Program-made: the position numbers and the translations under genes
From: Deuterostichococcus epilithicus
Taxonomy: Eukaryota; Chlorophyta; Trebouxiophyceae; Prasiolales; Stichococcaceae
Reading direction: 5' to 3'
Assembly: GCA_033439295.1 (NCBI GenBank)
Contig: JAVTLE010000001.1
Span: 2,232,001 to 2,296,000, forward strand
DNA: 64,000 nucleotides
The notes under the pieces: generated by a model
The model's database searches: none
Told to the model about the DNA's origin: nothing
The model's input: the letters and a program-made list of their open reading frames with translations, nothing else
Shown: positions 48,897-64,000 of the stretch, in pieces
Layout: the number at the start of each line of letters is the position of its first letter
Position numbering within the stretch: position 1 is the first letter of the stretch

Positions 48897-51800
48897 ATGC
48901 TGCGGCAAACTCAGGCGCTCATGTTGCTGATCATGGCTGCAACTTCAGCAACAGAGGCGCGTGTCAACACTTCAGGAAGCGTGGAGGCGGCCAACACTTC
49001 AACAATACAGCAGGTCTGACGCCCATGCCGAACCAGCGCTTATGCCCATGCCTATCGTCTTCAAGGTCAAAAACTAGAGACTGGCCGCCAAGACATCAGG
49101 AAACTTAAGAGTCTTCTGGCGGGCAACATTGCACCGCCGTCCGGCACAACATATTTTGCCATGTTTCGCATGTTTTACATATTTTGCCATTTTGCCATCT
49201 GATGCCTACTTTATAATTCAAGGCAGGGTCCAAGCCAGACTCATCGAGGCAANAATTGCAGTACCCCCCCACCAATGGATCTGGCTCGTTTGCAATCTGC
49301 AGGCCCGCCTGACGGCCACAGCTGACGGCTTGGTCGATATGGCGTTTGGAGTCGCAGCCGCGACCCTGAGAGGGCGACCCCGCGCCCTGGCTGCCACTGC
49401 AACGGCAAGTGGTGAGTACTGCATAACGATTGGCCCTTAAGCTTTGCCATTCACGTGGCAGATACACATCCACATCTTTTATAGAAGCACTGCAATGGCA
49501 GTCGGCATGGTAGTTACTGCATTGTACGGTTGAAAGCACCTACTCAGTTTCAAATGCAGCTGTCTCACCAACAAAAGGTGAAAACCTTCTCATCAGTGGC
49601 ATTTTCTGGCTTACAGTACTCACGGTGCCCCCGCCTGGAAAGCAAGCTCCCCCGCCGGCAAAGCGTGCGCCGCCGCCTACAAGGAAGTCTCCCCCACCAG
49701 CAGAGCGCGCCCCACCGCCAGCGAAGCGCTCCCCGCCGCCGGCGAAGCAGTCTCCTCCGCCGACAAAGCGACCCCCACCACCGGCGCAACAGCCTGCCCC
49801 GCCGGCAAAGCGCAGCCCGCCGCTGACACGGCAGTCTCCCCCGCCAACGGAGCGCGCCCCGCCGCCGGCGAAGCGCACCCCGCCGCCGGCGAGGCAGTTT
49901 CCTCCGCCGACAAGGCGACTCTCACCACCGGCGCATCAGTCGCCCCCGACAGCAATCCGCAACCCGCCGCCAACGAGGCAGTCTCCACCGCCAGCAAAGC
50001 GCGCACCGCCGCCTGCAAGGCAGTCTTCCCCGCCAGGCAAGCGCACCCCGCCGCCAGCAAGGCAGGCTCCCCCGCCGGCAAAGCGCTCCCCGCCGTCAGC
50101 AAAGCGCACCCCGCCGCCGGCAGAGCAGTCTCCGCCGCCAACGAGGCAGTCTCCTCCGCCAGCAAAGCGCGCACCGCCGCCTGCAAGGCAGGCTCCCCCG
50201 CNAGCAAAGGGTGCCNCNNCGCCAGCAAGGCAGTCTCCTCCGCCAGCAAAGCGCTCCCCGCCGCCAGCAAAGCGCACCCCGCCGCCGGCAGAGCACTCTC
50301 CTCCGCCAACGAGGCAGTCTCCTCCGCCAGCAAAGAGCGCACCGCCGCCTACAAGGCAGGTTCCCCCACCAGCAAAGGGCGCCCCGCCGCCAACAAGGCA
50401 GTCTTCCCCGCCAGGCAAGCGCACCCCGCCGCCGGCAAAGCAGGCTCCCCCGCTGGCAAAGCGCGCCCCTCCGCCAGGAAGACGTGCTTCCCCGCCAGCA
50501 ACACTTCGACCCCCCCCGGGTGCCAGGCTTACTGCACACGCACATATGTTGCGGCTGGACAATTGTTGCCGTCACAGCTGCTGCTCTGACATGCTGGAGT
50601 CATGGCAGAACTGGCACAGCCGTCAGTCTGTGCAAGTGCAACGTTATTGCTGATTGCTTGCTGGAACACATCCAATCACATGGTAGAGCATGGATCAATT
50701 TCTGCAGCTTTGATATTTGCCATCTCTGTTGTGCAGCGGTTTGCCCTTCCAGATGTGCCAACTCGGACCGCACTGGCGGTGATGGCGTCCGCTACCTGTG
50801 CCTAGACTCAGTTCATGATGCGGTGCCCATCTACTGCCGTGCCATGGAGACAGCGGATCCGCAAGAGTTTCTACCGGTGCGTACTGTAGCACCACTCGCC
50901 AAGACTACATCCTCAACTTCATTGTTGCTTACAAACAACCTATCATAGTATGTCCTGGCTTGCTGGTGCTCTCATGTCAAGTTCTGACAGTGGGTTCGAC
51001 TCCCTGCCTGTTCTCTCGTTTTGGTGTCGCCACTCCAAGTGCTCCCTCCCTTTATGGCTGGTGGAAACGCAACTGGACTGAGCGCACATCTGTGGCTGCA
51101 ACAGCTGCGAATTATAAACGGCACCTCTCACAGATACAATTACGCGTGCTACAGTGATTCAGCCTGCGCTTATTACACGAAGGTGCGCACTCAGTGTGGC
51201 CTCGAGGAAGCGAATTCCATATTGACAACTTGTTGACAGGGTGATTGCGTCGCTCCAGCTGATGCGCTGGGTAGCGAGCCACCGCATGGCGAGTGTGCCG
51301 GGGTATTGACCGCAGATTTCCATGCTGCAACCGATTCGCTTTGCTTGTAATGCTAGACTGCATGTTGCCGTGGTGATCTGCGTTGTGACTCACGGCCATT
51401 TGATCCGCACCACACAAACGCTATGCTGAAGTAGCTGTGCATGGGGCTCCGGCTCTCTTAACACGGTGACGACACGGTATGCAGGTCCGTTTAGATGTGA
51501 CCACGATGTCCATTGTTGAAGACTCTGCCTTTGCGACTTGCGATGGCTGCGGGGAGGGTGGTGAGGGCGTTGCCAAGGCGTACGGATCCGCTGGTAGCTA
51601 CGACACCGCAGACTACGATGCTGATGCAGGTGTGTGTCTGACTGCGGATGTACTACAGCTGGACCATAGCCGAGCGCATGGGTTCACTCTCAGCGTTGGT
51701 TGCACGTATCTTCTCGTGCATGTCGGCATTTGCTAACATATTGGCTGGCCCTTGGCAAGTCATCACCACGCGATACATGCATACGTTTCAGTGCGTGTTG

Positions 51801-54800
51801 AAGAGGGCTTAATGAGCCGGACAGCAACCCTATGCGCATAGGATGCTGTCCGGCTCATTAAGCCCTCTTTCAACAAAACATGTAGACTGAGGTCCCAGGT
51901 TTGACTCCCAGAAGGGGCAATTGACAGAAGGGCAGGCATCTATGCGATAGGATGCTGTCCGGCCCATTAAGCCCTCTTTCAACAGTACGTCAAGTGCCGA
52001 TGTTGACTGAGTGCATTTCGATAACGCTCAAATAAAACCACCAACTCGTGTCGGCACAGGGTATGCCAGCATCGACTTGAGAGGGACACCATTTTCAGTC
52101 AGCAAATCGGCTTACGACCTCGCATTCTATCTACCCCTCGGCTGTATCTTCCGCTACTCCCACAGTGATCAGGTGCACGCTGAAGCTTCGTCTACTTGGC
52201 TGATTGTCGACCTGCCAGACGTGAACGGCATTGCTAAGGAGGTTGGGGCTGAGACACAAGCATCGATGACAGCAGCATTATCAGCTGTGAGGCAAGGTAC
52301 AACAATGGCCCATCTGTTACATGTTGCACACAAAGCCTCCTTTGTCAGCCGAAACATGCATTTCTGAGTGTCCTTGCTGAACACGTGCAGGTTGTAGACC
52401 TGAAGGCAGGGGGCAACTGTGGTCACTTGAGCCCGGGTGAGCAGCTAAAGGAGTGATCCTCGTTCAAATGTGCTACCCAGTTGATGGTGCCATGACCTAT
52501 GTAGAAAGTCAGTGTTTGCGCTGCGAGCCCAGCGGTGCGCTCACTGGCGATGACTCGCTCACTTGCTGAGGTGTGGTCTTGCATGCCAATGACCGTGCAC
52601 AAGCCATGGACGCCTCCAGTAGGGACGGCCATATGTGCTCATCCCGGGCTGGCGCAACAGCTAACGCGTCGCACCCTGGCCCATGGGTCCGGGTGCAAAC
52701 CTCGCCGTTGCCATACATTTCCAAGCGGGTCTAAAGGATGCCGTTGATGTGGCGTCTTGCATGCGTTTATTGTACAGGCCCGTATGGTGGCGGCGCAAGC
52801 ATCTTGTTGGAGTGGACAAGCGACACAGGCGCGCTGGCGCCCAGCTTTCTTTCTGACTTACCAATCTCAGAGATTTTGCCATTTCAATCCCGACAGCATT
52901 CGGTGTCTTGCGTGCAATCGTGGTGCAGTATGGTCGTTCGTGTTGCTGCCGCTGCAGCACGATGTGGGTCGACTTTGCGTGACGCTGCCGGCACAGCTTC
53001 CGAGTTTGCAATGGCAGGGTTTACATGTTTCGCTTGCGCTGCGCGCCGAGGATTTGGTGGCTGCGGTAATTTGCGGATGTTCTATTGCGCAGGCAGGGCA
53101 TGCCCTTCCAGATGTGCCAACTCGGACCGCACTGGCGGTGATGGCGTCCGCTACCTGTGCCTAGACTCAGTTCACGACGCGGTGCCCATCTACTGCCATG
53201 GCATGGAGAGAGCGGTTCCACAAGAGTTTCTTATGGTGCGTAATGGAGCATCCTTCGCGAAGGCTAAACTATGACATAGCCTTTGGTGTTGTGAAAAAAA
53301 CAGATCTTTGTCTTGGCGCGCTAGTGCCCTCATCTCGAGTTGTGCATGTGGGACTGAATCCCATCCCGAGTTGTTCATGTGGATTTGACTCCCTGCCCAT
53401 GCTCCCATTTCTGGTGTCGCCAATCGAAGTGCTCCTTCTCTTCATGGCTGTGGAAATGCGACTGGACTAAGCGCATGTCTTTGGCTGCAATGACAGCTAA
53501 CGAGGGTGGACAGGGACACGGCCGCTCGCACATACAATTACGCATGCTATGGTGATTCGGCCTGCGCTTATTACGCGAGGGTGCGCGCTCATAGTGGCCT
53601 CATGGAAAGGCACCTTCTCTTGTGACAATCAAAAGGTGGTTGACCCGCGATGGCTGAAGCCCTTGGTGATGAGCCACCGCATGGCGAGTGTGCCATTGCA
53701 ATAATTTGCACCATCTGCACCAACAAGGCCCTTTGCCAGGGCCTTGCTTTGCCTGGGATGCGAGATTGAATGTTGCCATGGTAATTTGCGTTCTGAGGCG
53801 CGGCCTTTCATGGCCGATCGATCCGCTCCAGACAAGCACTATGGTGCAGTAATTGCGCATGGGGCTCTGCCTCTCCAACACAACGACATTATGGTACGCA
53901 GGTCCGTTTAGATGTCGCCACAATGTCCATTGTTCAAGACTCCACCTTTGCGACCAGCAATGGCGGCACACAGTTTGGTGGGAGCGACGCACCCATGGAG
54001 TACGGGTCCGCTGGTAGCTACAATCACGACGCTCCAACAGGTGTGTAGTGGCTGATTGTGGAAGTGATAAGGCTGAAACCTAGTACATGCTTGACTCAGT
54101 CACAGCGTTGTCTGCGTATGTGTTGTCGTGCATGACGGCGTGCTGCTGGTATGTTGCGCTGGGTGGCTTCTCGCAAGTCATCACACGATGTGTGCAAGTC
54201 TGTGCCCGAAGTGCCGATGCTGACTGGATGTTTTTCCGGTGAGTCGCCTGCTCGCACCAGACTTCCCCATCATGTGTCTGGCACAGGGTATGCCAACATC
54301 GACCTGAGAGGGACACCCTTTTCAGTCAGCGCATCGGCTTACGACCTCGCATCTTATTTACCCCTTGGCTGTGGCTTCCGCTACTCCCAAAATAACCAGG
54401 TGCACGCTGATTCGCGACTGTTTGCATGGCTTTGGCGACCTGCTAGACCTGAGCAGCGCTGACGAGCTTGGCACTGACTGAAGCGTTGAAGGAAGCAGCA
54501 TTATGAGCTGTGACGCAGAATACAACAACGGGGGAGCTGTTGACATGTTGCATACGCAGCCTCCGATTCAACAGCGATAACATGCATTCCTGGGTGCATT
54601 CCCTTCTGAACACATGCAGATTGTAGACCTGGAGGCAGGGGGCAACTGTGGCGATTTAAGCGCGGGTGAGAAGCAACAGGATTGTTCCTTGTTCAGATGT
54701 GCTACCCATTGGTTGTGCTGTGGCTGTATGTAGAAAGCAACGTTTGCGCTGTGAGCCCAACGGCGTAATTACTGGCACTGACTCGCTCAATTCTTTGCAT

Positions 54801-57800
54801 GCACATGACCTGGCATGAGCTATTGGCATCTCGAACGCGGACAGCCACGCTAGAAAGCTGTTGATGTGGCGCCTCGCATGGTTCTCAATACAGGCCCGCC
54901 TGGTGGCACCGCAAGCATCCCATTGGAGTGGAGAAGCCACGAAGGCACGCTGGCGCCCATCTTTCCTCTCGACACCCTTGAGTCTGTTGCAGCAGTGGTG
55001 CAGTATGGTGGTTAGTGATGGTGCCGCTGCAGCACGATGTGGGCTCGACCCCGCCTGTCGCTGCCGGCACAGCTACCGACTTTGCAAGGGCAGGGTTTAC
55101 AATGTTTCGCGCGCGCTGCTTGGCAAGAGTCTGGTGGCGGCGGTCATTTGCATATGTTGTGTGCGCAGGCAGACCGTGCCCGTCCACATGTGCCGACTCG
55201 GACCGCACTGGCGGAGACGGCTTCCGCTACCTGTGCCTGGACTCAGTTCATGGCGCGGTGCCGATCTATTGCAGCGGCATGGAGACAGCGGTTCCGCAAG
55301 AGTTTCTGCTGGTGCGTAATCGAGCATCACTCGCCAAGGCAGAATTATGAAATTTCCTTGGCGTTAAGAATCAAATCAGCTCATGTCCTGACTCTGCTGG
55401 CGCCCTCATCTCAAGTTGTGGATGTGGGTCCGACTCCCTGCCCATGCTCCCATTTGTGGTGTCGCCAATCGAAGTGCTCCCTTGCTTCATGACCGGTGGC
55501 AATGCAACTGGACTGAGCGCATACCTGTGGCTGCAATGACAGCTAACAAAGGTGGACGGGGACACTGCCGCTCACACATACAATTACGCATGCTACGTTA
55601 TGTCAGCCTGCGCTTTTTACACAAGGGTGCGCACTCAGTACGGCCTTCTGAAAGCGAATCTCCTTTTGACACTTAACAGGGTGGTTGACCCACTCTGGCT
55701 GATGCACTCGGTAGCGAGCCACTGCATGGCAAGTTTACCGTATCGCGTGGTCATAATCTGCACCACGCTGCCAGCGCTTAGTTGTGCATGTGATGCGACA
55801 TTATGTGTTGTTGTGGTGATCTGCGTGGTGTTGTGGCACACCACTTGCTTGGACATCCCTCCAAGCGCTATGCTGAAGTAGCTGAGCATGGAGCTCCGCC
55901 TGTCTCACACGACAACGGCACAGAATGCAGGTCCGTTTAAATGTCGCCACAATGTCCATTGTTCAAGACTCCACCTTTGCGACCAGCGATTATGGTACAA
56001 GGTTTGATGGGAGCACTTTACCCATGGAGTACGGATCCGCTGGTGGCCATGACTACGATTACGACGCTTACACAGGCGTGCTTCTTATTGAATTGTAATT
56101 CACTGCAGCCTAGCCGAGTACATGATAAACTCACAGCGTTGTCCGCACGTGTCGTGTCGTGCCAGCCACTGACATGTTGGGTGACTATGGCAAGTCATCT
56201 TATGATGCATGCCTATGTGTCAGTGCCCCAAGTACCGATGTTGGCTGGATTCATTTCGAGGAACCACCTGCTCGCTACAAAATCCCCCATCTTGTGTCTG
56301 GCACAGGGTATGCCAACATCGACTTGCGAGGGACGCCTTTTGCAGTCAGCGAATTGGCTTACGACCTTGCATTCTATCTACCCTATGGCTGTGGCTTCCG
56401 CTACTCCGCCAATAACCAGGTGCATGCTGATTCTTTGCATTTGCATGGAGGATTGGCGACTTGGCAGATGTGAGCAGCGTATCTGAGATTTTGGGCCTGT
56501 GACCTAAGCACTGATGGTAGCAGCGTGATGAGCTGTGAGGCAAGATACATACAACAATGGAAAAACTGTTGATGTGTTGCATACAAAGCCTCATTCATTA
56601 GCAAAAAAAAACTGCATATCTGAGTGTCCCTTCTGAACACGTGCAGGTTGTAGACCTGGAGGCAGTGGGGGGCAGCTGTGGCCACTTAATTGCGGGTGAG
56701 CAGCTACAAGACTGTTTCTTTTTCAGATGTGCTACCCAATGGATGGTGTCGTGACCTATGTGTATCTGCGTTGTGAGCCAAGCAATGCATTTATTGGCGA
56801 TGGCTCGCTCGCTTGCTGAGATGTGGTCTCGCATGCACATGGCCGTGCATGAGCCATGACAATACCAATGGGGACGGCCATACATATGTGCTCACCCGGG
56901 CTGGCGCACCAGCTGACTTTAAGCACCCTGGCCCACGAGTCCGGTCGCATCTTCCCCTTCAGAATACAATCCCAATAAGCAGGTCTACAGGATCCTGTTG
57001 ATGAAGCATACCATTCAATATAGGCCCGCCCGGTGGCAATGCAAGCATCTCATTGGAGTGGACAAGCCAAAAAGGCACGTTGGCGCCCATTTTTCTCTTG
57101 ATACTCTTGATTCTCCTGCAGTAGTGGTGCCATATAACTTTTGGTGATGGTGCCATTGCCAGCACAGCTACCAACTCTGCAATAGGCAGGGTTACAGTGT
57201 TTTGCGCGCGCTGCATGCCACGAGTCTTGTAGCTGCGGCCATTCGTGGATGTTGTTGTGCGCAGGCAGGATGTGCCCGTCCAGATGTGCCGACTCGGATC
57301 GTACAGGCGGTGATGGCGTACGCTACCTATGCCTGGACTCCGTTCATGACGCGGTGCCCATCTACTGCAGCGGCATGGAGACAGCGGCTCCACAAGAGTT
57401 TCTATTGGTGCGACACAAAGAATGTATCACTCGCAAAGGCAGACTTATGAAATATCCTTGGCATTAAGAATCAAATCAACTTGTGTCCTGGCTCGGTAGT
57501 GCCCTCATGTCGATTGTGGACGTGGGTTCGCCTCCTTGCCCGATCTCCCATATTTGGTGTCGCTGTTCAACATGCTCCCTCCCTTCATGGCTGGTGAATC
57601 AGACTAGACTGAGCGCATGTCTCTGGCAACAGCTAACGAAGTTGGACGCGGACTATGGCGGTCGCAACTACGCATGCCGCGGTGTTGCAAGTTGCGCTTA
57701 TTACACAAGGGTGCGCACTTAATATGACCTCGTGAAAGGCGATTTGCCTTTAGACACTTGAGAGTGTGAAGATGCGCTCTGCTAGCTGACGCACTTGGTA

Positions 57801-60800
57801 GAAAGCCATTGCATGGCAAGTGTGTCGTGGTCATCGTCTGCACCATGCTGCCCGCGCTTTACTTTGCCTGTGATGCGAGATTGCATGTTGCCTTGGTAAT
57901 TTACGTTTTGAGCCGCTGCCATTCATGACCAAATCATCAGCACCGGAGAAACGCTGTGCTGAGCTAGCTCAGCATAGGGCACCGCTTCTCTAACACAATG
58001 ACTTCATGGTACGCAGGTCCGTTTAGATGTGGCCACAATGTCGATTGTTCAAGACTCCACCTTTGGAACCGGCGTTTTGGGCATTCCAGATTCTGATGGG
58101 AGCGCTGCGCTCATGTCATACGGATCTGCCGGTGGCTATCCAGGTGCATGCCTTGTGCAGGTGTTTGTTGAAGGTGCAAGTGGTATGGCTGGAGCCTAGC
58201 CGAGCACATGTTTGTGGCGCAGCATTGTTTGCACGTGTCTTCTCGTGCATGACTGCCTGTTGCTGACAAATTGGGTGGCTCTTGGCAAGTCATCACGCAA
58301 TACAAGCATACGTGTCAGTGCCCCCGAGTGCCATTGTTGACTGGGTGCAATTTGGTGAATCGCCCGCTCAAAAACGTGTCCCCCATTTCGTGTCAGGATC
58401 AGGGCATGCCGATGCCAACATTGACCTGAGAGGGACGCCTTTTTCTGTCAGCGCATTGGCTTATGACCTCGCATTTTATCTACCCTACGGCTGTGGCTTC
58501 CGCTACTCCGCCAACAGCCAGGTGCGCGCTGATTCTCGTCAAGTTGCTTAGCTGATTGGCGACCTGCCAAACACCAGCAGCGTTACAGAGGATTCTGCGG
58601 CTCATCAAAGCATTGACGACAGCAGTTGAGTTGTGAGGCAAACAAGAATACAACAAAGGTGGAGCTGTGAACAGATTGCATACGCAGCCTCCGATTCATC
58701 AGCCAACACATGCTTTTCTAGGTGTCTTTTCTGACCACGTGCAGGTTGTCGACCTGGAGGCGGAGGGCAGCTGTGACCATGTGAGCGCGGGTGAGCAGCC
58801 ACAGGATTGTTCCTTGTTTAGATGTGCTACCCAATGGTTGATGCTCTGACCCGCATGTAAAAGCAATGGTTCGCTCTGTTCGCCCAAAGGTTAAATCACT
58901 GGCAATGACTTGCTCGCTTGCTGAGATGTGGTCTCGCATGCAAATGACCGTGCATGAAACCATAGGCATCTCCAACGGGGACGGCCATAAGTGCCCACCT
59001 CATGCTGGCGCAACAGACATTATGAAACACTGGCTCATGGGTCCGGCTGCAATGCTCGCCTTTGCAATGCACTCCCGAGCGGATTCACCAAATGCCGTTG
59101 ATGGGGCGCCTCGCATGGTTTTCCATACAGGCCCGCCTGGTGGCGACGCAAGCATCCTATTGGAGTGGACAAGCGACAAAGGCACGCTGGCGCCCACTTT
59201 ACTCCCGACACCCTTGGGTTCCCTGCGGCACTGGCGCAATATGGTTGTTAGTCGTAGTGATGCTGCCGCTGCAATTTGATGTGGGTTCAAGCCTGCCTGA
59301 CGCTGCCGGCACAGCTACCAACTTTGTGATGGCAAGGTTTGCAGATGTTTTGCATGCGTTGCATGCCAAAACCCTGATGGCTGCGGTCATTTGCGGATGG
59401 TGGTGTGTGCAGGCAGTTTGTGCCCGTCCACATGTGCCGACTCGGACCGCACAGGCGGAGACGGCTTCCGCTACCTGTGCCTGGACTCAGTTCATGGCGC
59501 GGTGCCGATCTATTGCAGCGGCATGGAGACAGCGGTTCCGCAAGAGTTTCTGCTGGTGCGTAATCGAGCATCACTTGCCAAGGCAGAAATATGAAATATC
59601 CTTGGCGTTAAGAATCAAATCAGCTCATGTCCTGACTCTGCTGGCGCCCTCATCTCAAGTCGTGGATGTGGGTCCCTGCCTGTTCCCCCGTTTTCAATGT
59701 CGCCACTCGGAGTGCTCTCTCCCTCGATTGGTGGTGGAAATGCGACTAGACTGAGCGCATACCTGTGGCTGCAATGACAGCTGGCAAAGGTGGACGAGGA
59801 CACCGCCGCTCACACGTACAATTACGCGTGCTACAGTGATTCAGCCTGCGCTTATTACACGAAGGTGCGGCGTTGTGGAATGCAACATCTCTTTCGACAC
59901 ATTTGCCACCAGACAGGGTGGTTGACCCACTCTGGTTGATGCACTCGGTAGCGGGCCACCGCAGCAATGGCGAGTGTGTCGTGGTTGTTAACTTGCACCA
60001 TGCTGTCTCGAGGGTTTGCTATGTCTTCAATGCGAGACCGCGCATTGCTTGGTGATCCACATTTGAGGCGCAGCCATTCAGACCGGCTGATACGCACCAG
60101 ACAAGCGCTATGCTTAAATAGCTGAGCATAGGGCTCCGCGTCTCTAATACGGTGATGTCATGGTATGCAGGTCCGTTTAGATGTGGCCACGATGTCCATC
60201 GTTCAGGATTCCACCTTTGCAACAAGCAATGGCGGTACAAAGTATGGTGGGAGCCATGCGCCCATGGAGTATGGACTTGCTGGTGGTTGCAACGCTTATG
60301 CAGGTGCATGTGTGATTGCGGAGGTAGTCCGGCTGGAACCTAGCCATGCACATGGTTGTCGGCTAGTGTCATTTGCACTCATCATGCCGACTGGCTCTTG
60401 GCAAGTCAACACACGACTGCATGCATACGTTTAATGCCCGACTGGGTGCAATTTGGATGACGGCCTGCACTGAACAACATCTCACATCTTGTGTCCGGCA
60501 CAGGGCATGCCAACATCGACCTCAGAGGGACGCCATTTTCAGTCAGCGCATTGGCTTACGACCCCGCATTCCGCAACAACCCTGGGTATAATTATCAACC
60601 CTTCGGCTTTGGCTTCCGCTACTCCGCCAATAACCAGGTGCGCGCAGGTACATTGGTCCATGCAGGACCGATTGGCGAACCGCCCAAATGTGAGCAGGAC
60701 TGTGCCGTGATTTTCTCGGGGCTGAATCACGGGGCTGACCAAAACACCGACAGAAACAGCATTGCGAGCTGTGAGGCATGATGCAACGATGGCCCAGCTA

Positions 60801-61257
60801 TTGACATGATGCATACACAGCTTCATTCGTCAGCCGAGAATTACATTTCTGAGTGACTTGTTGGAACATGTGCAGGTTGTAGATCTGGAGGCAGGAGGCC
60901 ACTGTGGTCACTTGAGCGCGGGTGAGCAGCTGAAGGACTGTATTTTTCTTGTTTCTGCTACGCATTGGTTGACCTGAGTTGTCTTGAAAGTCAATGTTTG
61001 CATTGTAAGCCCAGTGGTGCGTTTACTGGCGATGACTCGCTTGCTTGCTGAGATGTGGTCGTGCATGCACATGACCGTGCATGAGCCATTGGCAAGGCCA
61101 ATGGGGACGGCCGTGCTGTAAACTATGTTTGATGTGGTGTCTTGCATGCTTCTTTGGCACAGGCCCGCCTGGCGGCAACAAGAGTATCTCATTGGAGTGG
61201 ATAAGCGACGAAGGCACACTGGCGCATCGGGACGTTGCCCCTTCTTTGTTCGTTTAA
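48897..61257 (+). CDS. Secreted proline-rich protein with five tandem GON domains
   Basis: The proposed ATG at 48897 gives a signal peptide (MLRQTQALMLLIMAATSATE). Exon 1 ends in phase 0 at a weak donor (near 49016) and exon 2 starts at about 49303 (ARLTATADGLVDMAFGVAAA). A GTGAGT donor then joins in phase to a proline-rich exon (about 49614-50513), which joins in phase to GON module 1 at 50737. Five modules of six exons follow, ending GPPGGNKSISLEWISDEG with TAA at 61255-61257. Key GON features recur in every copy: a Cys-rich start, DG-RYLCLDS, an IYC-ME...PQEFL block, then VRLDV-TMSIV, IDLRGTPFSV and VVDLEAGG-CG. GON domains are known from the C-terminus of ADAMTS9/20; here no protease domain is present. 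An extracellular matrix or cell-wall role is plausible, with no direct evidence. Total is roughly 1,400 residues. Splicing across the module 3/4 boundary is the weakest part. Confidence 0.8.
49625..50515 (+). repeat. Proline-rich low-complexity repeat, PPPAKR/PPPTRQ type
   Basis: About 295 codons repeat units such as PPPAKR, PPPTRQ, PPPARQ and SPPGKR at roughly six-residue spacing. The mix of Pro runs with Lys/Arg resembles hydroxyproline-rich cell-wall glycoproteins (extensin or pherophorin spacers). Four ambiguous bases (near 50202-50220) sit in the middle, so the copy number in the assembly is unsure. Upstream-strand frames that look Gly/Ala-rich here are shadows. Confidence 0.85.
51797..51874. 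mobile_element. Palindromic foldback element in intron of GON module 1
   Basis: GTTGAAGAGGGCTTAATGAG with CCGGACAGCA, then the complement running back to CTTTCAAC, forms an almost perfect palindrome of about 78 nt, centred on TATGCGCATA. It matches the elements at 61.36-61.91 kb. It is followed by CAAAACATGTAGACTGAGG, which is also found, inverted, at about 61.84 kb. Confidence 0.75.
51946..51986. mobile_element. Single arm of the same palindromic element
   Basis: GGATGCTGTCCGGCCCATTA with AGCCCTCTTTCAAC repeats one arm of the palindrome at 51797-51874 and stands alone, about 75 nt downstream of it. The two pieces bracket a short spacer also present at 61.78-61.85 kb in the opposite orientation. 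Confidence 0.7.
53093..55007 (+). repeat. GON module 2
   Basis: Exons: 53093-53235 (start RACPSRCANSDRTGG), 53497-53580 (YNYACYGDSACAYYAR), 53902-54040 (VRLDVATMSIVQDSTFATSN), 54287-54399 (IDLRGTPFSVSASAYDLAS), 54620-54665 (IVDLEAGGNCGDLSA) and 54894-55007 (GTASIPLEWRSHEGTLAPIF). All six exon phases match, including the join to module 3. Confidence 0.87.
55169..57130 (+). repeat. GON module 3
   Basis: Exons: 55169-55311, 55543-55626 (YNYACYVMSACAFYTR), 55931-56075 (VRLNVATMSIVQDSTFATSD), 56307-56419 (IDLRGTPFAVSELAYDLAF), 56647-56695 (VVDLEAVGGSCGHL) and one from 57024 (GGNASISLEWTSQKGTLAPI). The third exon would use a GC donor (ACAG/GCGTGC), where the other copies have GT. The last exon lacks the donor used at this place in module 2, so its join to module 4 is uncertain. 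Confidence 0.8.
57265..59250 (+). repeat. GON module 4
   Basis: Exons: 57265-57407 (MCPSRCADSDRTGGDGVRYL), 57633-57710 (LTKLDADYGGRNYACRGVAS), 58017-58143 (VRLDVATMSIVQDSTFGTG), 58403-58521 (HADANIDLRGTPFSVSALAY), 58745-58790 (VVDLEAEGSCDHVSA) and one from 59131 (GGDASILLEWTSDKGTLAPT). The second and third exons are shorter than in other copies and the fourth has two extra codons, all keeping phase. Confidence 0.83.
59413..61257 (+). repeat. GON module 5
   Basis: Exons: 59413-59555 (SLCPSTCADSDRTGGDGFRY), 59781-59864 (YNYACYSDSACAYYTK), 60171-60303 (VRLDVATMSIVQDSTFATSN), 60504-60637 (HANIDLRGTPFSVSALAYD, with a seven-codon insertion NNPGYNY), 60876-60921 (VVDLEAGGHCGHLSA) and 61163-61257 (last exon with TAA). 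Phases match throughout. Confidence 0.85.
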
Positions 61258-61360
61258 GGCTTTGTTGGCTTGGGGTGAAAATGAACTGAAGTTTAAGAAT
61301 ATTTTGCCACAAGCCCTAATGATGGCCAGAAATGCAGCGGGCGAGGCCGGGCGTCATTTT

Positions 61361-61442
61361 GTTGAAAGAGGGCTTGATGAGCCGGACAGCATCCTCTGCG
61401 CATAGGATTGCTGTCTCCGGCTCATTAAGCCCTCTTTCAACA
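61361..61442. mobile_element. Palindromic foldback element, copy behind the GON gene
   Basis: An 82-nt inverted repeat begins GTTGAAAGAGGGCTTGATG and ends CCCTCTTTCAACA, with small changes near the centre (CTCTGCGCATAGGATT) that break perfect symmetry. It lies about 100 nt after the stop codon of the GON gene. Confidence 0.75.
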
Positions 61443-61456
61443 ACACATGCAGACTG

Positions 61457-61790
61457 GGTCCTCTAGGTGGTGTCGCCACTGTTCATCTCCCAGTTACCGT
61501 TCCCAGCCGGCTGCAGAGGCCCCCATAAGCGTGCCAGGCCGGACCAGTGCCCTGTTGCATAGATGCTCAACCGAGCCTAGACCTCGGTCTACATGTTTTG
61601 TTGAAAGAGGGCTTGATGAGCCGGACAGCATCCTATGCGCATAGGGTGCTGTCCGGCTCATTAAGCCCTCTTTCAACAAAACATGTAGACTGGGGTCTTT
61701 AGGTGGTGTAGCCACCGTTCATCTCCCAGTTACCGTTCCCAGTCGGCTGCAGAGGCCCCCATTAGCGTGCCAGGCCCGACCAGTGCCCTA
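61457..61790. repeat. Direct repeat of a ~100-bp spacer between palindromes
   Basis: The segment 61457-61556 (CTAGGTGGTGTCGCCACTG, CTCCCAGTTACCGTTCCCAG, GGCTGCAGAGGCCCCCATAA) recurs at about 61697-61790 with few differences. Each copy follows a palindrome, so palindrome plus spacer is the duplicated unit. Confidence 0.75.
61588..61690. mobile_element. Palindromic foldback element, extended copy
   Basis: GTCTACATGTTTTGTTGAAA and its complement form the ends of a palindrome of about 103 nt, centred on TATGCGCATA. Symmetry is nearly perfect. Such a sequence would form a strong cruciform or RNA hairpin. Confidence 0.78.
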
Positions 61791-61850
61791 TCGCATAGTG
61801 CCTGCCCTTCTGTCAATTGCCCCTTCTGGGAGTCAAACCTGGGACCTCAG

Positions 61851-61909
61851 TCTACATGTTTTGTTGAAAGAGGGCTTAATGAGCCGGACAGCATCCTATG
61901 CGCATAGGG
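61851..61909. mobile_element. Half palindromic element
   Basis: One arm plus the centre (TGTTTTGTTGAAAGAGGGC up to TATGCGCATAGGGT) is present. The returning arm is missing, so the element is cut at its centre. Confidence 0.7.
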
Positions 61910-63467
61910 TCAGAGATCCACCTGGGTTTGTACGAACGCGTTGCTTTGCTGGCTGAGTTGTTTGGTGTTGTATCGCATCTACTCTTGATGCGGGCAGCCA
62001 CTCAGGGTTTATGGGCCTAGTGCAGGCTGCATCAATACTATAAAATCGAACTGTCTGTCTAAACCCAACCCGCAAAAGTGCGGTTTTCGGCGCTGAGGAG
62101 CCGCGTGCGGGCGGCGACCCCCTCAGATGCTGTCTAAAATCGGGATGCAGCGTCCTGTGAGATTGATCCCTGTCTGCTGACCCCAACGCGCCGCAGTTGG
62201 CTGCTTTCTGCTGAAAACATGAGGTAATCCGCGTGACGTCTGCCGCGAACTTCGTTGCAGCGGGGCTTGCCGACATCGCAGCCAGCCCTCACATGACTCT
62301 GGCACCGAGACAGTCGCATGGGGGCAGGCGGACGAAGCGGCGCTCTCATTGATAGTGAAACAAATCCATGCAACGCTGCGACGGAAGCAAGGTTTTCAGC
62401 AAACGGGCTGGACGGGCGGCCACGAAAGACGGGCAGACTTCTGATTGGTCTTCCGCAGCGAATTAGCCATTGTCATTTCATCGAGTGTTCTCTGCGAGCT
62501 TTTCATCAGACGTTTCCCATTCGCACTTTGAGTCCCTGTCGGAACCACGGGTACCAGAGGCGGGTACACTGCGGGTACAGCAGCTAGTATTGTCAGAACG
62601 TCGGTCCCAATCCATAGTGCAGCTACAACCACTACCCGCCATCTGCACCCTCCGTCACTCTCTTGTACCATGTGATTAGTGAGCAGCGACACCGCTGCCC
62701 TACCTGCAGGGGATGATTCTCCACGTCCTAAGTCCTAACAATACCTGCACCTTTTTCAGCGAGGGCTGTGTCAAGCGGGGCTAGCAGCCGCTCTCAAAGG
62801 GGGCTAGTTTTGCGAGATTCGGCATGCTCTCTCGCCACGAGCCTGCAGGCCCTGCTGAGTGCGGCACGCATTAGGTGCGGCAGGAGGCTTTGCTGCAGTT
62901 GGGTATCGAAGCGCTCCAGGTCCTTCAAGCCCTGCCTCGCTGTCTGCATTTCGGCGCGGCAGCTTTCAGGCGCGGCAGGAGACATCGCTGGAGGCGTCGA
63001 AGCGTGGCAGGTCTCGCCCCTCTGGGCTCTCCGCAAACTGCAGCGCAGCACGGTCAGCAGCTTCAGCGTGCCGCGGGCATCGCAGGAATGCACGGTGCCG
63101 GAGGTGGCAGGCTGCCACAGCGGTGCCGGAGGCGGCAGGCTGCCACAGCGGTGCAAGCCGCCACCCTCCGATCGAGCAGGTCGCAACATGCCTGCGCGCT
63201 TCCTCCCCTTCCGTCAAGAATTTCAGACACGTTCCTGAGAGGACGTGCTGGTGGTTGTCAGAGCATCGTGAGCATCCCCCAGGAGCTGCTCCCCGTGCCA
63301 TCTGGGCCGCTGCGCGCTGCCCACCACAGAGTCTTGGCATTGCAGGCCCCCGAGGCTGTGCCGCCCTGTAGTGCCCTGTGGCCCCGCAGCTCCGAGTGAA
63401 GCATCATAGCGCGGACCACCGCTGCGCTGATGTAGGGTTTAGATCCTAATCAGCTTCGATGCTGCAC
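61910..63467. other. Region without a supported gene; small tandem duplication
   Basis: Frames on both strands stay open for stretches, but I found no family signal. A unit of about 29 nt (GGTGCCGGAGGTGGCAGGC and onwards) is repeated in tandem at about 63091-63155. The end of the Gle1-like gene probably lies here, but I could not place its last exon or stop. Confidence 0.4.
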
Positions 63468-64000
63468 CTGGTTGTCGTGCAGGAAGGCCCGGATGCGCGT
63501 CACGATGGCGCGGCTGTCGGGGTCGTTCGCCTGCGTGCAGCACATCGCACGCGGCTCGGGTGAAGGCGCGAAGCTGCTGCTGCCCAGGAAACTGAGTGGG
63601 CCAGGCGTGCGGCTTCACTGCCGGCGCTGTCGAGCAGTGCACGGAGCCTGCACCCATGTGCAGCGCGCGCGCAGCGTGCAGGTGCAGGTGCAGGGCGGAG
63701 CAGGATATGTTTGAGACTGTGTAGGGTTAAGGGTTTTGTCACCTGCTGCAGTGCGGCCAGGAAAGATTGGTCCACGTGGTGCAGCAGCTTGACGAATTGG
63801 CTGCGGTAGGCGGCGTACAGCCGGTAGCCGGCGACGCGCAGAAAGGCCTCCAGCGCCGTCGCCGTGAGCCGCGTGGCCGGCAGCTCGTTCAGTAGCCTGG
63901 CGCGGCAGCAGCACGACCGGGGGGTCAGGTCTCCGTTCTGCAGCCCGGGACGCCAGGCTGTGGGCACGCGTGGCGTGTGCGATTATGCGACACGGCAGAG
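63468..64000 (-). CDS. Gle1-like mRNA export factor, C-terminal exons (partial)
   Basis: Gle1 activates the DEAD-box helicase of the nuclear pore to release mRNA in the cytoplasm. One exon (ending at 63743; start near 63905) reads LTATALEAFLRVAGYRLYAA then YRSQFVKLLHHVDQSFLAALQQ. It joins in phase 0 to 63468-63530 (ANDPDSRAIVTRIRAFLHDN). The VAG-L--Y-SQF-K-L pattern followed by an R-I--FL helix fits the C-terminal HEAT-like part of Gle1. Upstream exons are beyond the right edge, and the stop codon was not located. Family assignment rests on pattern similarity only. Confidence 0.6.

Follow-up and report, generated by a model that had tools for sequence, protein, structure and literature searches.

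A green-algal gene model with five tandem GON domains, a proline-rich heptad region and no ADAMTS protease

Most discussion of the GON domain concerns GON-1, ADAMTS9, and ADAMTS20, of which it forms a part; in the literature searched, none of the 23 titles using the phrase GON domain names an alga or a bacterium. What kind of protein, then, is encoded by a tandem array of GON-like modules in a window (the whole stretch of DNA analyzed) of 64,000 nucleotides from a photosynthetic eukaryote, probably a green alga? The genome of this host gives 39 light-harvesting-protein matches.

Tandem units of ~2.1 kb, five in number (detected as repeat families with five copies), occupy positions 50737 to 61257 of the plus strand (Table 1). 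The sequence-only reading had proposed five modules, each with the same conserved blocks in the same order, and a true multi-GON architecture. The blocks are present in that order in the spliced modules, with small differences between modules, and the architecture is borne out by Pfam GON (PF08685), against which all five spliced modules are significant at 30.8 to 52.9 bits (curated cut-off 22.6 bits), with the model covered in one or two stretches. The ends of the proposed interval are exact, in that exon 1 of unit 1 opens at 50737 and the stop codon of unit 5 occupies 61255 to 61257. None of the five modules matched PF08685 after shuffling. Exons were joined manually, following conservation and GT-AG sites and in part guided by the GON pattern; this gives one GON-length protein of 190 to 199 aa per unit, from six exons in one phase pattern common to all five units. 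Within units, 24 of the 25 introns are GT-AG and one is GC-AG. Two same-phase donors fit the end of exon 3 in each unit, and with the alternative donor units 1 to 5 score 46.0, 46.5, 38.3, 32.3, and 45.6 bits. Splicing matters, because in unspliced DNA the Pfam model lists only one of the five units, at 17.6 bits, under the cut-off. Stop codons in frame between exons (such as those ahead of exon 2 in units 2, 3, and 5) had raised the worry of a pseudogene; they are harmless, since the shared acceptor CAG|CT places them inside introns, and the joined modules are free of stop codons in all five cases. Across all 10 module pairs dN/dS is 0.27 to 0.69; the units are thus under purifying selection relative to one another, with a constraint that is only moderate at these values. 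In the phylogenetic tree the five window modules form a single clade (support 100/100). That the five GON units are real is virtually certain, and they would have arisen by tandem duplication of the 2.1-kb unit. A PDB sequence search with module 4 alone gave two matches, neither relevant (best E 0.33).

Table 1. Features of the proposed gene (window positions)
Feature	Position	Strand	Exons or details	PF08685 (bits)
Proposed exon 1	48897..49013	+	start codon; signal-peptide-like stretch MLRQTQALMLLIMAATSATEA; donor GTCTGA; phase 0	
Proposed exon 2	49303..49411	+	acceptor CTGCAG; donor GTGAGT; phase 0 to 1; model only, without homology support	
Exon 3	49617..50519	+	903 nt, 41 heptads; from 21-nt period and translation	
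GON unit 1	50737..52842	+	50737-50876, 51105-51182, 51485-51629, 52060-52172, 52391-52436, 52778-52842	49.1
Unit 1 exon 6		+	extends past 52842 into a tail of ambiguous end	
Inter-unit stretch 1-2	52843..53096	+	18 frame-keeping GT-AG intron options	
GON unit 2	53101..54958	+	53101-53235, 53497-53580, 53902-54040, 54287-54399, 54620-54665, 54894-54958	52.9
Unit 2 ends		+	exon 1 reaches a few bases further upstream, with more than one possible acceptor; exon 6 extends further	
GON unit 3	55177..57088	+	55177-55311, 55543-55626, 55931-56075, 56307-56419, 56647-56695, 57024-57088	42.6
Unit 3 exon 3	55931..56075	+	GC donor; GT donor after 56042 fits too	
Unit 3 ends		+	exon 1 reaches a few bases further upstream, with more than one possible acceptor; exon 6 extends further	
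GON unit 4	57273..59195	+	57273-57407, 57633-57710, 58017-58143, 58403-58521, 58745-58790, 59131-59195	30.8
Unit 4 ends		+	exon 1 reaches a few bases further upstream, with more than one possible acceptor; exon 6 extends further	
GON unit 5	59421..61257	+	59421-59555, 59781-59864, 60171-60303, 60504-60637, 60876-60921, 61163-61257; stop TAA 61255-61257	51.2

The gene model begins at 48897, upstream of the interval first proposed. The best hydrophobic 10-mer of exon 1 has a mean KD of 2.44, and 10-mers of at least 2.0 occur in 2 of the 23 open ATG frames between 47000 and 49620 and in 47 of 654 on the plus strand of the window; judged by hydropathy alone, exon 1 is suggestive of a signal peptide. 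The heptads of exon 3 are mostly (K/R)(R/Q)(S/A/T)PPP(A/T), with 119 prolines in 301 aa; the sequence has N at 50202, 50216, and 50218-50219, and the junction of this exon with unit 1 is in phase 1. A start that looks signal-like by hydropathy, followed by 41 proline-rich heptads, invites comparison with the hydroxyproline-rich wall glycoproteins, and the heptad region is likely of this type. The suggestion that the array serves the matrix is plausible in light of these two upstream features of the gene model.

Comparison with animal GON-1, ADAMTS9, and ADAMTS20 was made through the Pfam model only, and what they have in common with the window is PF08685, found in 5/5 units, whereas the window gene model has five GONs, proline-rich heptads, and no M12B protease. 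The array had been described as lacking a metalloprotease, and this holds for the gene model; a protease in the same gene was accordingly rejected as a candidate. A genome search for PF01421 returned no matches, a weak result in that its control was silent, and the one Reprolysin_3 match in the genome lies on another contig (C10), with HELGHTFGMQHDH. Thrombospondin type 1 and spacer domains gave no Pfam match in eight ORFs on either flank or within the initial 270 aa of the gene model.

It had also been supposed that GON is described almost only from animal ADAMTS proteins, and this fails. The same genome has three further GON genes, with two GONs each, on contig C19 (677-696 kb), and the domain is found in several bacterial phyla: in 14 of 282 Myxococcota genomes (a sample that includes the genome on which it was centred, one of the positives), and, outside Myxococcota, in one record each from Chloroflexi, Paenibacillus, and Desulfatitalea. 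A sample of 299 Bacillota genomes gave one positive, the genome on which that sample was centred. Corallococcus encodes a tandem (double) GON, and a bacterial subtilase carries a C-terminal one; Ig-like, cadherin-like, and crystallin domains are further partners. GON as an animal-only domain is ruled out by these proteins, and GON can exist without an ADAMTS protease, because the bacterial relatives carry it without such a protease. Bacterial GONs match the algal GON of C19 at 30-40% identity along almost the full domain and share with algal GONs the blocks NIDLRGTPF and QVVxLxGGGxCG, but their genes are contiguous frames without introns, with at most two GONs seen per frame, varied partners, and no proline heptads seen. 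In the full-length alignment A4, whose 14 rows are two window modules, one C19 domain, and 11 bacterial GONs, 17 columns are invariant, and conserved Cys and core blocks are common to the window modules and the other GONs. Two of the 14 bacterial loci, L015 and L017, which are from Corallococcus as are L013 and L016, entered neither the alignments A2 (13 rows, 12 loci) and A4 nor the tree, and the second GONs of L013 and L016 dropped out because boundary finding failed on them; A4 was also built without the second GON of L012 and without L013, L021, L024, and L026. Kinship of algal with bacterial GONs is shown by these computations. Viral origin was rejected, with no relative among the five stretches matched in each of two pattern-limited scans of viral contigs; a plasmid scan gave no match.

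The N-terminus of the domain offers a new lead. At E ≤ 0.01, half of the 14 rows (seven) match the NCBIfam model GGGWT_bact (NF040941), the first row at 33.7 bits for a cut-off of 30, and hhalign of GON with a fibrinogen-like profile scores 40.4, where 200 column shuffles reach at most 25.1. Bacterial rows alone score 43.4, whereas algal rows alone score 19.6, under the shuffle maximum and with no fibrinogen-like signal. Seven of the eight PDB profile matches are intelectin or tenascin, at E values of 0.19 to 0.55, none significant singly. The alignment spans 49 columns and takes in only the first ~45-50 GON residues; the remaining ~150 did not align. In this stretch of the bacterial GONs (first ~45 residues), C, DGxY, and YC-xM stand in register with the fibrinogen-related/intelectin motif (NF040941, PF00147), while the GGGW part is absent and P-x-EYLTL takes its place. 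The N-terminus of bacterial GONs thus resembles the fibrinogen-like/intelectin N-terminal motif, which gives a concrete hypothesis of glycan or matrix binding that could be put to the animal enzymes as well. Not all fibrinogen-like domains are lectins. An extended picture, which we place on the unlikely side, would treat GON as an ancient and mobile glycan-binding domain, derived from fibrinogen and common to bacteria, algae, and animals, gained by ADAMTS9/20 as a substrate-aiming part and independently by a bacterial subtilase, and multiplied fivefold by the alga at the tip of a proline-rich rod to give a multivalent wall lectin or a mating or defense agglutinin.

A recognition protein directed at bacteria or serving in mating (a defense molecule of lectin type or an agglutinin), whose GON came from bacteria such as myxobacteria, would draw on the fibrinogen-like N-terminus of the family, on the Myxococcota occurrences, and on a tree that places the algal GONs together with two GONs of Minicystis (support 96/96). 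That tree (16 bacterial rows, no animal rows) is midpoint-rooted and gives no direction of transfer, however, the two Minicystis rows lie in an open fork with long branches, and a branch setting the bacteria apart has a support of only 62/6; we consider this alternative unlikely.

The junctions between units bear on whether there is one protein at all. The four inter-unit stretches measure 180 to 254 nt and hold 18, 12, 5, and 6 frame-keeping GT-AG options, with the linkers between units left ambiguous. The frame of unit 1 is open after exon 6 into the first exon region of unit 2. Five neighboring single-GON genes, or partly pseudogenes, would account for the in-frame stop that soon follows exon 6 of units 2, 3, and 4 unless spliced, for the hydrophobic run and then stop in unit 3 exon 6, and for linker splice sites that differ between units without conservation. 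Yet the gaps are short, every junction offers a frame-keeping intron, the joined modules are stop-free and under constraint, and of the 24 ATGs in the gaps none starts a reading frame whose hydrophobic 10-mers attain 2.0, four reaching 1.81-1.93. Separate genes are therefore quite unlikely, and a single multi-GON gene is very probable. TGTAA is the algal poly(A) motif; it is absent from the four gaps, which decides nothing because the 673 nt after unit 5 also lack it.

Read as one gene on the plus strand, from about 48.9 to 61.26 kb, the locus would encode a secreted protein of about 1,400-1,500 aa, with a signal peptide, a rod-like proline-rich heptad region, and five GON domains at the end, where they would form a multivalent binding head, with glycans as a candidate ligand, on a wall-embedded rod. 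We infer the single transcript, secretion, wall location, and binding; the array may be an adhesive module. An extracellular wall or surface protein is probable, glycan-type binding by the GONs is tentative, and the whole, a wall-like glycoprotein that is secreted and binds multivalently through its GON head, is the explanation that we favor with modest confidence. In the literature consulted, the only function tested for a GON domain, that of worm GON-1, is in secretion, not adhesion, and a signal sequence with the GON domain alone rescues secretion defects in Caenorhabditis elegans (PMC4517882); an array that likewise aids export inside the ER/Golgi is nevertheless improbable, as the predicted C-terminal end APSLFV is no known ER retention sequence, and the proline-rich heptads and the secreted-type GON proteins of bacteria, which have no ER, fit an extracellular place better. 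With the five-GON protein and the bacterial GONs, the ligands of the domain could be studied free of any attached protease.

The proposed wall-like glycoprotein may have company in the same genome. The C19 genes share GON domains and a PPP linker with the window gene, and one C19 copy, read by eye, has a signal-peptide-like start, as the window gene does; they differ in carrying two GONs and a hydrophobic C-terminal tail in place of five GONs. With a tail of GPI or membrane type, their products could be surface-bound partners of the five-GON protein. Identity of the second C19 GON is 43% with the first one and 33-35% with the window modules.

The GON array in the window consists of five tandem units of ~2.1 kb, with a start-to-start spacing of ~2,020-2,420 nt, both delineated from repeat families of five copies, and introns separate the conserved blocks within each unit. 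Splice sites common to the units define six exons per unit with the phase pattern E1-0-E2-0-E3-1-E4-0-E5-1-E6; the within-unit introns are GT-AG in 24/25 cases and GC-AG in one of the 25. The joined modules are free of stop codons in all five units when E6 is counted to 65 nt, are 190-199 aa long after splicing, and are 68-83% identical to one another in pairwise comparison. The dN/dS values, 0.27-0.69 across all ten module pairs, fit moderately constrained coding units. Between units 3 and 5, DNA identity is 96% over a 276-nt stretch comprising E1 and some of the intron that follows it, which points to a conversion or duplication event in the recent past.

The sequence-only reading had taken each module for a GON domain, and this was borne out by hmmscan against Pfam-A, where every module had PF08685 as its best-scoring family (49.1, 52.9, 42.6, 30.8, and 51.2 bits for units 1-5; cut-off 22.6 bits). 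With an alternative E3 donor the corresponding values were 46.0, 46.5, 38.3, 32.3, and 45.6 bits. None of the five shuffled modules gave a GON match, and without splicing PF08685 listed one unit only, at 17.6 bits, under the cut-off.

The preferred reading, drawn from the sequence, is that the five units probably form a single gene with ambiguous modelled linkers. The gaps between units measure 180-254 nt; frame-keeping GT-AG introns can be placed in all four (18, 12, 5, and 6 options), and no frame begun by any of the 24 gap ATGs contains a hydrophobic 10-mer averaging at least 2.0, though four of these frames reach 1.81-1.93. The gene model extends upstream of the interval originally read, to a proline-rich heptad exon that joins unit 1 in phase 1 (RPPPAVCPSRC) and is itself preceded by two small exons of matching phases with a putative signal-peptide-like start, MLRQTQALMLLIMAATSATEA. 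Since hydrophobic 10-mers with a mean of at least 2.0 occur in 2/23 open ATG frames nearby and in 47/654 on the forward strand, this first exon with its signal-peptide-like stretch is put forward as a proposal only. Downstream of the array, one of the eight flanking ORFs scanned, GLE1-like, is over its family cut-off.

Features of the gene model, its surroundings and related loci (window positions unless a contig is named)
Feature	Position	Strand	Description
Heptad exon	49617-50519	+	21-nt period; 41 proline-rich heptads, actual number may differ (N bases at 50202, 50216, 50218-50219)
GON array	50737-61257	+	units 1-5
MITE-like repeat	51820-52004		one copy inside the unit 1 E3-E4 intron; 112-nt arm 51827-51938, 100% complementary to 61799-61910
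Unit 5 stop codon	61255-61257	+	end of gene model
MITE-like repeats	61357-61910		more copies near 61357-61697
GLE1-like ORF	63500-63979	-	PF07817, 28.1 bits, cut-off 24
L008-L010	C19:670001-700000		three tandem genes, two GONs each; PPP linker; hydrophobic, GPI- or membrane-type tail stretch
L055, metzincin-like stretch	G000:C10:1183392-1183595	-	PF13582, 26 bits; frame reads HELGHTFGMQHDH

The genome containing the window (46.8 Mb, 21 contigs) has 39 light-harvesting-protein matches, which mark it as that of a photosynthetic eukaryote; "green alga" would fit. A PF08685 profile search of this genome found six further GON exons that exceed the cut-off; each lies on contig C19, where they belong to the three tandem two-GON genes. 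A protein query gave at least 35 exon matches, at least 28 in the window and at least 7 on C19. One C19 copy, read by eye through to its stop, has a signal-like peptide upstream and a hydrophobic tail ahead of that stop; the other two C19 genes have corresponding tail stretches. Searches for proteases gave no genome match for PF01421 at E ≤ 1 or for PF05548 at E ≤ 0.01, the control of each search also being silent. PF13582 (Reprolysin_3) has only one match listed for the genome, so a metzincin-like stretch is present, though the contig that carries it (C10) has no GON match.

The view that GON is nearly confined to animals falls, as the domain is present in bacterial genomes. A pattern-limited search of genome contigs with the algal GON alignment detected 14 loci, ten from Myxococcota (Minicystis, Corallococcus, Myxococcus, Pyxidicoccus, and one MAG) and the remainder from a Chloroflexi MAG, Paenibacillus, a record named Comamonas, and a Desulfatitalea MAG, all 30-40% identical to the algal GON over almost the full domain. 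Every row of a 14-row alignment, A4 (two window modules, one C19 domain, and 11 bacterial GONs), matches PF08685 at E ≤ 10 (best 1e-22). Counting the genome around which each sample was drawn, PF08685 occurs in 14/282 Myxococcota genomes and in 1/299 genomes of the Paenibacillus phylum. Corallococcus has two GONs per ORF; among six scanned bacterial ORFs, GON stands alone in two, and its partners are subtilase, Vps62, crystallin, Ig-like, cadherin-like, and STIG1-like domains. Bacterial GON proteins are also listed in databases. The protein of the record Comamonas sp. KCTC 72670 is a subtilase with a C-terminal GON, and a protease-GON combination thus exists outside ADAMTS. This GON protein nests among Myxococcaceae, and the genome is ~9 Mb; the record may be mislabelled.

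In a midpoint-rooted, long-branched tree of 27 rows, none of them animal, the window modules form one clade (100/100) and the C19 domains a separate one (85/84); two Minicystis GONs cluster with the algal rows at 96/96.

The array is a real, unusual architecture, a variant of a known domain family, and its interest lies in the array itself, the rod-like proline-rich region, and the link to fibrinogen-like domains. The term GON domain occurs in 23 papers of the literature searched, which has few subscription papers, and no paper was found that combines it with algae, Chlamydomonas, or fibrinogen; this gap is no proof of novelty, and reports of algal or bacterial GONs may exist. In C. elegans, a GON domain joined only to a signal sequence is reported to support secretion (PMC4517882), and a table in another article places GON among the Pfam domains exclusive to ECM proteins in the human proteome (PMC4224354).

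A lead on function comes from the GON N-terminus. A profile of 13 bacterial GONs had eight matches at E ≤ 10 in the PDB, seven of them intelectins or tenascin, which align at this end with E values of 0.19-0.55, each weak singly. Aligned by hhalign with seven bacterial fibrinogen-like domains (A3), A4 scored 40.4 (probability 78%, P 1.8e-5), against a maximum of 25.1 in 200 column shuffles and 11.3 for a reversed profile; the alignment spans 49 columns and is N-terminal in each of the two families. Bacterial GONs alone scored 43.4; algal GONs alone gave no signal against the fibrinogen-like profile (19.6, 200-shuffle maximum 25.1). Independently of hhalign, the fibrinogen-like NCBIfam model GGGWT_bact matched 7/14 GON rows at E ≤ 0.01 (top row 33.7 bits, cut-off 30). 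We read this as a probable N-terminal subdomain common to GON and fibrinogen-like domains, the rest of GON being different. Because fibrinogen-like domains often bind glycans, our best guess is a putative binding role for GON. The fibrinogen C-terminal-like family PF00147 is common in Myxococcota, with a match in 69/140 genomes, and many of the matches extend over no more than roughly the first 50 positions.
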